Positions 31,407-34,063 of a DNA stretch of 64,000 nt are shown in pieces. This stretch comes from Synechococcus sp. PCC 6312 (lineage in GTDB: Bacteria > Cyanobacteriota > Cyanobacteriia > Thermosynechococcales > Thermosynechococcaceae). The stretch covers positions 1,737,501-1,801,500 of the forward strand of contig NC_019680.1 in NCBI RefSeq assembly GCF_000316685.1, given 5' to 3'. Positions within the stretch are counted from its first letter, which is position 1. Each line of letters begins with the position of its first letter. The notes beneath the pieces were generated by a model. It was not told where the DNA came from and did not search any database. It saw only the letters and a list, made by a program, of their open reading frames with translations. The translations under genes and the position numbers were made by a program.

Positions 31407-32477
31407 TTGAAACTTTTATTCCTCTCCACATCAGTTGGCCCCCTCGGTTCTGGCTTAGGGGGGGGTGTTGAATTAACCCTGCTGAATATTGCCCAGGCCC
31501 TCGTCACCCTTGGCCACCAGATTACAGTCGTTGCTCCCCAAGGCTCAAAACTGCCCTTACCTGTGGAGATGGTTGAAATTTCCGGCGCATTACAAGTCCC
31601 AGCCCAAACCCAAACCCGAGACCAACCCATTGAGATGCCACCCAACCCGGTTTTAGGGCGGATGTGGGATTATGCCCGCCAAGTCCAGGCTGACTACGAC
31701 ATTTTGGTCAATTTTGCCTACGATTGGTTGCCGTTCTATTTAACCCCATTTTTCCAAAAGCCCATTGCCCATCTGGTCAGTATGGGTTCCTTAAACGAGG
31801 TCATGGATCGAGTCGTGGAGGAGGTGGTTGACCAATTTCCGGGCAGTATTAGCGTCTATACCCGTACCCAGGCCCTCACGTTTCCCTTTGCCGATCAATG
31901 TGTGGTCTTGGGCAGTGGTTTAGATCTATCGCTGTATGAGTTTTGTCCAGAACCCGAGGAGTCTTTATGTTGGCTAGGGCGAATTTCCCCAGAAAAGGGC
32001 CTGGAAGATGCGGTGGCAGCGGTGAACGAAACGAGAACTCCCCTCAAAATCATGGGCCAGTTACAAGATGCTGCCTACTGGGAAAGCATTCAAGCCAGCT
32101 ACCCCCATGCACCGATTCAATATCTCGGCTTCAAAACAACTCAGGAAATGCAGGAAATTTTGCGAAAATGCCGGGCCTTACTGGTCACCTCTCGCTGGGT
32201 TGAAGCCTTTGGCAATGTCTTAATCGAAAGCCTGGCCTGTGGGGTTCCTGTCATTGCTTATGCCCGTGGCGGCCCGACCGAAATTATTCAGGATGGGCAA
32301 ACAGGCTGGTTAGTGACACCGGATTCTGTTTCTGGCTTAGTTGCTGCCATTAACAAGTTGGAGCAAATTAATCGCCAGGCCTGTCGAGCACAAGCAGAGC
32401 GGGATTATGCATTACCCGTCTATGGAGCCAGAGTCGAGCAGTGGTTAAAGAACCTACTCCCTGGAAAGTTCTCGTAA
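31407..32477 (+). CDS. Glycosyltransferase family 4 protein
   Basis: A 356-residue GT-B transferase. The N-terminal half opens with LLFLSTSVGPLGSGLGGGVE (acceptor-side Gly loop). The C-terminal half contains GRISPEKGLEDAV and the nucleotide-sugar motif EAFGNVLIESLACGVPVIAY. Donor and acceptor are not predictable. It begins with TTG 11 bases after atpC and may be translated from the same transcript. Its 3' end overlaps the convergent DUF3326 gene by 24 bases. Confidence 0.88.
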   Translation: MKLLFLSTSVGPLGSGLGGGVELTLLNIAQALVTLGHQITVVAPQGSKLPLPVEMVEISGALQVPAQTQTRDQPIEMPPNPVLGRMWDYARQVQADYDILVNFAYDWLPFYLTPFFQKPIAHLVSMGSLNEVMDRVVEEVVDQFPGSISVYTRTQALTFPFADQCVVLGSGLDLSLYEFCPEPEESLCWLGRISPEKGLEDAVAAVNETRTPLKIMGQLQDAAYWESIQASYPHAPIQYLGFKTTQEMQEILRKCRALLVTSRWVEAFGNVLIESLACGVPVIAYARGGPTEIIQDGQTGWLVTPDSVSGLVAAINKLEQINRQACRAQAERDYALPVYGARVEQWLKNLLPGKFS

Positions 32478-33518
32478 TCGCCCCATCTTTGGCCATAACC
32501 GTTGGACATCTACCCCCGCTTTCATGGCCGCTAAGACCCCAATAGCTTCAGCATAGGATTGAACAGCTAGAGCCTTAATCCCCAGGCCCGCAGCGGTCAC
32601 ATTTAAGGTGGTTGAATTGTCCGCCACAGTGATAATTTGGGTTCCCGTTTGATTAAACGCCAACAATCCTGACCCGCCACAAGCCCCCGCTGGACTAATG
32701 ACCACATCCACACATCGCCGATCCATCACACCCGCAGCCTGGTGGGAAACCTGAGAATCGAGAGAGACAAATTGAGGAGCTTGGCTCAGACCCACTAAGA
32801 CCGAGGGCAAAAACGTATAGCCAATTTCTTCCGCAGCGGCCTGGGGACTCACACTCGCATCCAGGGGTAGGGGCATCAGAGCAGGGGCATGGGCAGCCGG
32901 AATTTGAAACTCCCTGACCACTAAATGGCTAATGACAGCTTCGGCTCCCGCTAACGGATCGACTCCCTGACCTTGGCGGTAATCACTGAGGGCCTGGGCA
33001 TCAATTTGATCGGGAAAGCGAGTAATAATGGCAATGGCCTGGGCTGTCTCAATTAGTTTGGCGGCGGCCCTCAGCAAACTGTCTGGATGTCTTAAGGTTC
33101 CCCAGGTCGCTCCAGAGGCCGAGGTACGCAACTCCACCCCCAATGGCTGATCCGTAACGACATAATCCGTGAGCCGCAGTCCCAAGGTTGCCCGACAAGC
33201 CTCGGCCGCCTGTAAATGTCGCAATCGCAAGTCTGGAGCAATGGCCTGGTCAAACAGTAAGCCAATCCGATTCGTTTGGCCCCGTTGTAAACCCCAGGCC
33301 CCAGCCGCAAACTGATCCAGTCCATAGCCTTCCACATAGGCCACATTCGGCATTGACCAATAGAGTTGGGCCCCATTCAACACATTTGGATGGGTAATAA
33401 TTTGGTCACAGACTTGCCCCAAGGCCCGTACCACAGGAATGGCATCTCCGGCATAGCCCCCCATGGCCGCACCAATCCCTGTAGGAATGATTAAAACCGC
33501 AGTTAAAGCACGGGTCAT
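32454..33518 (-). CDS. DUF3326-family protein
   Basis: A 354-residue protein of an uncharacterised family common in cyanobacteria (DUF3326). It starts with the Gly-rich loop LIIPTGIGAAMGGYAGDA. Later it has CVDVVISPAGACGGSGLLAF and a helix-rich C terminus. The Gly-rich loops suggest a nucleotide or phosphate site, but no reaction is known. It is the last gene of a tight operon: a [2Fe-2S] ferredoxin, a 63-residue protein, then this gene, with a four-base overlap of the last two. Confidence 0.75.
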   Translation of the reverse strand: MTRALTAVLIIPTGIGAAMGGYAGDAIPVVRALGQVCDQIITHPNVLNGAQLYWSMPNVAYVEGYGLDQFAAGAWGLQRGQTNRIGLLFDQAIAPDLRLRHLQAAEACRATLGLRLTDYVVTDQPLGVELRTSASGATWGTLRHPDSLLRAAAKLIETAQAIAIITRFPDQIDAQALSDYRQGQGVDPLAGAEAVISHLVVREFQIPAAHAPALMPLPLDASVSPQAAAEEIGYTFLPSVLVGLSQAPQFVSLDSQVSHQAAGVMDRRCVDVVISPAGACGGSGLLAFNQTGTQIITVADNSTTLNVTAAGLGIKALAVQSYAEAIGVLAAMKAGVDVQRLWPKMGRLRELSRE

Positions 33519-33706
33519 AAACGGTCAGCACCAAGCTCAATCGGGGTCACTACGGCCTCAACACGAATCATCCCCGGCTCTGGGAGTTCGGTAATGGCCC
33601 AACGCAGGGGCATCCCCACTTTTATGAGTTCTTCGGTAATTAGAGAAATTAACTGGCTGGGATCAGGAGGCTGGGGCAATTCCAGGGTGATAAATTGTGT
33701 TTTCAT
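33515..33706 (-). CDS. Small conserved-looking protein between ferredoxin and DUF3326
   Basis: A 63-residue soluble protein, MKTQFITLELPQPPDPSQL, SLITEELIKVGMPLRWAITE, then a strand-rich end VEAVVTPIEL. No family was recognised. The beta-alpha-beta-beta pattern suggests a compact domain. Its stop overlaps the DUF3326 start (ATGA), and the ferredoxin stop is 24 bases upstream, so the three are probably one functional unit. Confidence 0.65.
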   Translation of the reverse strand: MKTQFITLELPQPPDPSQLISLITEELIKVGMPLRWAITELPEPGMIRVEAVVTPIELGADRL

Positions 33707-33730
33707 CAACCCATTATCCGCAGAGAATAC

Positions 33731-34063
33731 CTAACTCGTCTGTTGAAACTGCCCAAACTGGAGATCATAGACCTCATCTTCTTTTTCGCTAATGATTTTC
33801 AAGTCCGACTTAGGTTTGGCTACACAAAGCAAAACGTAGCCCTTTTCTCGCAGTTCGGGACTCAAGCCCATGGCATCCCCATGATCCACCTCTCCCGCGA
33901 CAACCAGGGCCGAGCAGGTCGTACAAACGCCGGAGTTACAGGCACTTGGTAAGGTATCCATCCCAGCAGCATAGGCCGCCCGCAAAATCTGCTTATCTTC
34001 AGAGACGCTCAGGGTGTAGGTTTGCCCTTGATGTTCAATTTCAACGGTGTAACTTTGGCTCAT
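33731..34063 (-). CDS. Plant-type [2Fe-2S] ferredoxin (divergent)
   Basis: A 110-residue ferredoxin. The cluster ligands are in ACNSGVCTTCSALV (Cys-x4-Cys-x2-Cys) and a distant Cys in YVLLCVAKPKSDLKI. It differs from photosynthetic PetF (usually CRAGACSTC) and has a C-terminal extension (EKEDEVYDLQFGQFQQTS), so it resembles the minor FdC-type ferredoxins. It is the first gene of the operon with DUF3326, which suggests electron delivery to that pathway. Confidence 0.9.
   Translation of the reverse strand: MSQSYTVEIEHQGQTYTLSVSEDKQILRAAYAAGMDTLPSACNSGVCTTCSALVVAGEVDHGDAMGLSPELREKGYVLLCVAKPKSDLKIISEKEDEVYDLQFGQFQQTS

Follow-up and report, generated by a model that had tools for sequence, protein, structure and literature searches.

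What does a protein of the DUF3326 family do beside a very small protein and a ferredoxin? The question is raised by three tightly packed genes in a 64,000-nucleotide stretch of the Synechococcus sp. PCC 6312 genome (contig NC_019680.1, positions 1,737,501 to 1,801,500 of the forward strand); this whole stretch was analysed and is called the window, and coordinates are counted from its first nucleotide. A preliminary description made from the sequence alone had proposed an undescribed pathway with a reductive reaction specific to photosynthetic cells. We found that DUF3326 and the small protein form a conserved two-part unit which depends neither on photosynthesis nor strictly on the ferredoxin, Fed3, and that another branch of the family lies beside decarboxylase-family genes. 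Our favoured reading, to which we give a probability of roughly 45 percent, is that the two proteins together make up a single cytosolic, non-redox enzyme, DUF3326 as its large part and the small protein as its small one, which acts on an amino acid or amine and is not tied to photosynthesis. The genes and their convergent neighbour are:

33731-34063, minus strand: Fed3-type plant-like [2Fe-2S] ferredoxin of 110 residues with a short C-terminal extension (PF00111, E 3.9e-15)
33515-33706, minus strand: small protein of 63 residues (RWA domain, predicted beta-alpha-beta-beta) with the motif PLRWAIT and without a Pfam family
32454-33518, minus strand: DUF3326 protein of 354 residues (PF11805, E 1.2e-161)
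31407-32477, plus strand: convergent GT4-type glycosyltransferase (PF00534, E 1.3e-26), outside the module

The open reading frames of the window bear out the tight packing given in the preliminary description: all three genes of the module lie on the minus strand, 24 bases (33707-33730) separate the ferredoxin from the small gene, and the small gene shares 4 bases (33515-33518) with DUF3326. The small frame begins with ATG at 33706; the program listing the reading frames places its start one codon earlier, at TTG. The 3' ends of DUF3326 and of the convergent glycosyltransferase gene overlap by 24 bases (32454-32477).

We determined the distribution of DUF3326 in a main sample of 146 genomes drawn from the phylum, 64 of them from the class of the window's genome (below simply the class) and 82 from outside it. 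The protein was present in 142 genomes, comprising 64/64 within the class and 78/82 outside. The photosystem reaction centre family Photo_RC (PF00124) was detected in 63/64 class genomes and in none of the 82 others. Since 78 of the outside genomes carry DUF3326 and none of them Photo_RC, DUF3326 is not tied to photosynthesis, and the assignment of the module to photosynthetic cells is corrected by this distribution. No DUF3326 was found in 13 of 14 named control genomes, and a plasmid collection searched with two queries other than the window's protein yielded no relatives. A potato DUF3326 gene is listed in the part of one report available to us (PMC13294368), and on this basis plants possess the family. 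One contig labelled Candidatus Gracilibacteria (L096) carries a DUF3326 of cyanobacterial type together with the small gene and is probably mis-binned. Genes next to DUF3326 outside the class encode flagellar FlhA, CheA, MotA/ExbB-like proteins, DsbA, FeoB or NAD(P)HX dehydratase; because these neighbours differ by lineage they were dropped as hints to function.

Within the class, distances between neighbouring genes on the same strand were computed from positions alone up to a limit of 1.5 kb, whatever lies between. The largest distances met were 986 bases between small gene and DUF3326, 461 between fed3 and small gene, and 509 between DUF3326 and the gene of a CPBP/Rce1-like membrane protease, a further family found near DUF3326 (PF02517, E 2.6e-19 for the copy at L036:7122-7715). 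The small gene lies upstream of DUF3326 within 1 kb in 55/64 class genomes, with a median gap of 61 bases, and fed3 lies within 0.5 kb upstream of the small gene in 36/64. All three genes occur together in 33 of the 64 genomes, and the CPBP gene joins them as the fourth in 30. The latter gene is present in 59/64 class genomes and downstream of DUF3326 in 50/64. A set of named loci, the best 80 of a longer list, showed a similar picture: in 72 the small gene precedes DUF3326 on its strand (two at 2.0 and 2.7 kb), in 56 a Fed3-type ferredoxin lies upstream (one at 2.3 kb), and in 70 the CPBP gene is present, in every case on the DUF3326 strand, its median position being 1129 bases past the DUF3326 start. 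Wherever the genes occur in these 80 loci the order ferredoxin, small gene, DUF3326 is kept; a 57th ferredoxin match, in L036, lies downstream and is Fed2-type. The arrangement exceeds chance. The preliminary description had named as counter-evidence the case that DUF3326 genes are never adjacent to the other two elsewhere, and this was not what the 80 named loci and 64 class genomes showed. In the window's genome the CPBP gene is located 315 kb away from the cluster (G000:C1:1454350-1454901), its product being 57 percent identical to the L036 copy.

The small protein gave no Pfam or NCBIfam match at E 1. Its PLRWAIT motif is conserved in alignments of 15 and of 38 small proteins, and the Trp is invariant among the 38. 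A narrow profile detected the family in 81/146 genomes, namely 63/64 of the class and 18 outside with weak E-values; in the 64th class genome (G107) the 242-base gap between ferredoxin and DUF3326 contains a reading frame with VIRWSIV, recognised by eye. We then ran the 38-protein cyanobacterial profile unfiltered on 36 loci, some of them overlapping, of which 24 come from outside the class and 12 surround class paralogues; together they gave 1141 frames with 100 codons or more. Five frames passed the inclusion threshold (E 7.6e-6 to 1.4e-3). Each of them either immediately precedes DUF3326 on its strand or is fused to it, a result independent of any selection by position. Fusions occur in family f23, and further ones in L122 and L150 scored below the threshold.

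A broader profile, for which these frames and f24 small genes were used as well, detected the small family in 132/146 genomes at E 0.01. Outside the class 66 genomes carry both genes, which are adjacent or fused in 7; the non-adjacent cases are all 58 of family f24 plus G032. Because this profile was partly built from sequences picked beside DUF3326, its adjacency count is not independent. Six f24 genomes have the small RWA gene about 19-21 kb from DUF3326, and in two f24 genomes it directly adjoins a GlmS-like gene (SIS plus glutamine amidotransferase; L154:8184-10204, L155:6816-8824). Small protein and DUF3326 do not co-occur without exception: three genomes belonging to a single genus (G052, G084, G132) retain the small gene without DUF3326, which hints at a second role of the small protein.

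Could the cluster be a mere transcriptional convenience, in which housekeeping genes are co-transcribed without a common pathway? In G089, a genome of the same family as the window's, fed3 precedes the CPBP gene by 37 bases, with small gene and DUF3326 located elsewhere, and this case fits such an explanation, as does the non-adjacency of the small gene and DUF3326 in family f24. However, without a common function it is difficult to account for the fusions of the two seen in phages and in family f23, and for the cluster as a whole we consider the explanation unlikely. For Fed3 and the CPBP protease it may hold: both are linked to DUF3326 in the photosynthetic class only, as far as the tested genomes go, and may share with it nothing beyond regulation.

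Relatives of DUF3326 were also present on viral contigs. Two scans of IMG/VR yielded overlapping sets, the first comprising 35 contigs (L160-L194) and the second, made with an alignment of mainly viral sequences, 78 (L209-L286). That the contigs are phages is shown by genes for terminase, T4-type portal, tail-tip, ligase, RecA or ribonucleotide reductase near several of the DUF3326 genes. Neighbours were counted in the second set on the same strand within 900 bases. A SpeD-like gene of the AdoMet_dc family is located upstream in 59/78 loci, in 44 of them within 66 bases; a PSD-like gene follows downstream in 7/78, and an ornithine-cyclodeaminase-like (OCD-like) gene precedes DUF3326 in 3/78. 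At least one of these neighbours was found in 69/78 loci, or in 61/68 once near-identical cores had been collapsed. Pfam confirmed the identity of five neighbours, two of them SpeD-like, two PSD-like and one OCD-like; SpeD-like and PSD-like proteins belong to two unrelated Pfam families. The pyruvoyl serine is present in 22/22 SpeD-like proteins of the first set, 17 by a strict pattern and 5 by eye. Apart from Pfam, the SpeD-like gene belongs to phrog_3125, and the one protein queried had its nearest annotated cultured-phage relatives in phages of Sinorhizobium, whose SpeD-like proteins are 28 percent identical to it. The layout amounts to a two-gene cassette, either SpeD-like gene then DUF3326 or DUF3326 then PSD-like gene.

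Searches of other phage collections gave no relatives: three viral DUF3326 proteins matched no PHROG, four queries found no DUF3326 relative in PHROGs, and the cultured-phage collection yielded none with queries that included two viral proteins. A literature search on a phage SpeD/PSD cassette brought up no paper naming one in its title or the start of its abstract.

In 17/78 viral loci, by pattern count, a domain with an RF or RW motif precedes DUF3326 at the N-terminus. The profile of the broad small family was compared by hhalign with 13 such domains and gave a probability of 90.7 and a score of 33.0 over 26 columns, whereas 60 column shuffles scored no more than 10.6 and windows of DUF3326 11.4. 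Twelve of the 13 aligned domains have RF and one RY, so that Trp is replaced by Phe or Tyr.

A second, divergent DUF3326 was found in 5 of 386 genomes. The four intact copies are N-terminally extended and the fifth (G320) has two internal stops. In two annotated loci, L132 and L133, extended paralogues adjoin genes of the OKR_DC (Orn/Lys/Arg-decarboxylase) family. The first locus (L132:6967-16890) also carries a non-ribosomal peptide synthetase gene and a B12-binding radical-SAM gene (DUF4070), the second (L133:771-5180) two methyltransferase genes and a cupin; both possibly make a natural-product building block of unknown nature. Comparison of extension profiles gave probabilities of 45.8 (A10 with A8), 0.3 (A5 with A8) and 27.3 (A8 with A12); the small domain may also be what extends DUF3326 at the N-terminus in family f31 and in the paralogues. 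In a tree of 54 sequences, midpoint-rooted and read by topology alone, viral and paralogue forms lie apart from cellular forms, with a single viral sequence (L160) joining the cellular side. N45, Y61, E193, H210 and E230 are common to all 54 sequences and D25 to 52, the remaining two having gaps at this position.

The presence of decarboxylase genes beside DUF3326 could also mean that DUF3326 and the small protein, rather than being the enzyme, help decarboxylases to mature or to be active, for example in pyruvoyl formation. Like SpeD, PSD is a pyruvoyl enzyme, and thus both decarboxylase families found beside phage DUF3326 (59/78 and 7/78 loci), unrelated as they are in Pfam, have this group in common. 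Two paralogues, however, adjoin genes of the OKR_DC family, whose members are pyridoxal phosphate enzymes needing no pyruvoyl group; moreover SpeD is missing from the window's genome, and the invariant D/N/Y/E/H set looks catalytic. A role in maturation appears clearly improbable to us.

We also assessed how firmly the ferredoxin belongs to the unit. The window's ferredoxin is the top match of its genome to the Fed3 profile (1.6e-53), and C42, C47, C50 and C80, which make up the plant-type [2Fe-2S] cysteine pattern, are invariant in 12/12 aligned Fed3 proteins. The label FdC-like used in the preliminary description is loose. Plant FdC2 has the Synechocystis orthologue Fed2 and FdC1 has none there, according to the available parts of two reports (PMC8408499, PMC5893904), and for this reason the window's ferredoxin is Fed3 and no FdC orthologue. 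It stops soon after EDEVYDLQFG and lacks the long C-terminal extension of the Fed2-type FdC2; a separate Fed2/FdC2-type ferredoxin with a longer tail is encoded in the same genome outside the window (L196). Matches to the Fed3 profile at E 1e-25 were obtained in 64/64 class genomes and in 0/82 outside. Six of the 64 best class matches scored below 143 bits. Two of them (G107, G139) sit close upstream of DUF3326, and the other four (G080, G114, G137, G141) reach 101-120 bits, which is the range of paralogues; in these four genomes small gene and DUF3326 remain side by side. Fed3 is the least tightly linked member of the cluster, the best-linked pair being small gene and DUF3326, and within the class Fed3 may be linked to this pair.

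These results bear on the reductive reaction expected in the preliminary description, namely a ferredoxin-dependent reductase module special to photosynthetic cells in which Fed3 passes electrons to DUF3326, perhaps via the small protein. The position of fed3 close upstream of the small gene in 36/64 class genomes and the confinement of Fed3-profile matches to the class would agree with it, the four paralogue-level matches being counted within the 64. However, DUF3326 is widespread in genomes with neither Photo_RC nor a Fed3 match, four class genomes keep the pair with paralogue-level ferredoxins only, and Fed3 is linked least tightly. In addition, 28 diverse DUF3326 members showed no invariant Cys and no recognised cofactor family. 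We see little chance that such a module is the answer.

Those 28 members do have D25, N45, Y61, E193, H210 and E230 in common. The window's protein matches PF11805 with 537.8 bits against a cut-off of 25 over model positions 1-336 of 337, and because the model matches from residue 6 on, the separate small protein is not part of the family. The predicted model is alpha/beta (predicted local distance difference test, pLDDT, 82.7; predicted template-modelling score, pTM, 0.84). Residues 77-253 resemble Rossmann-like domains such as 1jyf (Z 9.1, root-mean-square deviation (rmsd) 3.1, 104 aligned), and for the middle part there is a likeness to lumazine synthase (1w19, Z 8.8, rmsd 4.9, 134 aligned). 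Comparison with the Asp/Glu racemase superfamily gave 2vlb (Z 8.2, rmsd 3.0, 105 aligned; tied with other folds) and 3qvk (Z 8.0, rmsd 3.0, 112 aligned), and Pfam Asp_Glu_race matched 1/28 members at E 0.03. Enzymes of that superfamily use a pair of catalytic cysteines. We rejected an Asp/Glu racemase since there is no invariant Cys and the fold is tied with LacI/periplasmic-binding and lumazine-synthase folds. A Foldseek search of the PDB returned one match at E 0.001 (4kq9, E 7e-4, TM 0.17), which is not meaningful; the 28-member profile found no PDB sequence at E 10, and BFVD gave no match at E 0.001. The fold evidence, resting on predicted models, assigns DUF3326 to no family.

The small protein is predicted to fold as beta-alpha-beta-beta (pLDDT 90.7). 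Its structural matches are weak and tied with unrelated folds, among them lysine 5,6-aminomutase 9q1a (Z 5.7, rmsd 3.4, 61 aligned) and the dodecins 2cz8 (Z 4.9, rmsd 2.6, 56 aligned) and 3onr (Z 4.9, rmsd 3.1, 58 aligned). As the likeness to dodecins (PF07311) is one of fold with no sequence support in Pfam or PDB, this candidate was rejected; PF07311 is not among the families matched by the 38 small proteins at E 10, and the dodecin family itself occurs in 1/39 near relatives. A dodecin-like flavin carrier serving a DUF3326 flavoenzyme of unrecognised fold, reduced by Fed3 in phototrophs, would fit these dodecin matches, the lumazine synthase likeness and the Trp invariant in 38 small proteins, but is very improbable given the tied Z values, the missing sequence match and the replacement of Trp by Phe or Tyr in 13 phage domains.

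Taken together, we infer a subunit complex with non-redox chemistry and an amino-acid or amine substrate, and likewise the roles given here to Fed3 and the CPBP protease. DUF3326, with its conserved D25, N45, Y61, E193, H210 and E230, would be the large part; its chemistry is probably of the acid-base type, possibly assisted by a metal and free of redox cofactors. The small RWA domain probably contributes the missing part of the active site or of the oligomer. As substrate we consider an amino acid, or an amine derived from one, most likely, since the sister branch adjoins decarboxylase-family genes in phages and, at two cyanobacterial loci, OKR_DC-family genes. The pair is found in oxygenic cyanobacteria within an operon-like cluster together with the CPBP membrane protease and, more loosely, with Fed3, which is essential in Synechocystis according to the available part of one account (PMC4284462) and may serve a separate but co-regulated step. 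Ferredoxin and photosynthesis are probably not core to the two-part enzyme, because non-photosynthetic relatives have its parts too and phages carry them in a different form.

Several observations weigh against this two-part enzyme. Small gene and DUF3326 are non-adjacent in 58/58 genomes of family f24 with both, 12 genomes outside the class carry DUF3326 without a detected small gene, and G052, G084 and G132 show the reverse. Neither a fold match nor a complex model supports the proposed active site or subunit contact. On the viral side, 9/78 loci have none of the SpeD-like, PSD-like and OCD-like neighbours, and the cyanobacteria-only small profile matched the viral domain weakly (probability 16.7, score 19.7, shuffles at most 12.7). 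Residue 187 is D in 30/30 cellular and N in 24/24 viral or paralogue sequences. The window's DUF3326 has Asp187 and not the Asn of the decarboxylase-linked branch; owing to this difference the substrate of cellular DUF3326 may differ from that of the viral and paralogue branch. No decarboxylase-family gene adjoins the window's cluster, whose neighbours are glycosyltransferase, small and ferredoxin genes. The window's genome has no SpeD (no PF02675), and in the 110 phylum genomes with both genes the nearest SpeD lies at least 93 kb from DUF3326 or on another contig. Carrying the phage result over to the cyanobacterial branch by analogy is thus the weakest step of our reading, as residue 187 differs, SpeD is missing from the window's genome and none lies within 93 kb on the same contig.

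A wider proposal is possible rather than probable: an unrecognised two-part amino-acid or amine enzyme family, perhaps of arginine-ornithine-polyamine metabolism, might comprise a phylum-wide housekeeping branch with D187 and a phage cassette branch with N187 and a pyruvoyl-type decarboxylase, and be wired to Fed3 and CPBP in phototrophs. A protein without assigned function that occurs in 142/146 genomes phylum-wide is a good candidate for a missing core step. The phage cassette provides a concrete clue to the chemistry and a testable question: does the product of the decarboxylase feed DUF3326?

Compared with known systems, the window's protein is a full-length member of Pfam PF11805, an entry without assigned function. 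Its ferredoxin resembles plant FdC1 and FdC2 in belonging to the plant-type [2Fe-2S] family and in having a C-terminal extension, and differs from them in being Fed3. The clustered CPBP proteases can be compared by family with the plastid proteins AtSCO4 and AMR4, which are of cyanobacterial origin and of unknown molecular function as far as the available part of the source states (PMC7542359); a literature search on a link between CPBP and ferredoxin found none named in titles or the beginnings of abstracts, and one on Fed3 locus tags led mostly to papers on other subjects. Some phage and bacterial SpeD homologues are described, in the available parts of two reports, as L-ornithine or L-arginine decarboxylases (PMC9992855, PMC10407285). 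They share the Pfam family AdoMet_dc with the neighbours of viral DUF3326, which are likened to them by family as putative decarboxylases; our literature search on DUF3326 did not bring up these two papers. The closest precedent is cluster d of Cassier-Chauvat & Chauvat (2014, PMC4284462), consisting of fed3, a hypothetical DUF650 gene and DUF3326, and the module is hence not undescribed. The available passages of that account give no function for it and mention no CPBP gene and no non-photosynthetic or phage relatives. The middle gene is called DUF650 there, whereas in the window it encodes the small protein without a Pfam match; by description, the three genes are the same and stand in the same order as in the window.

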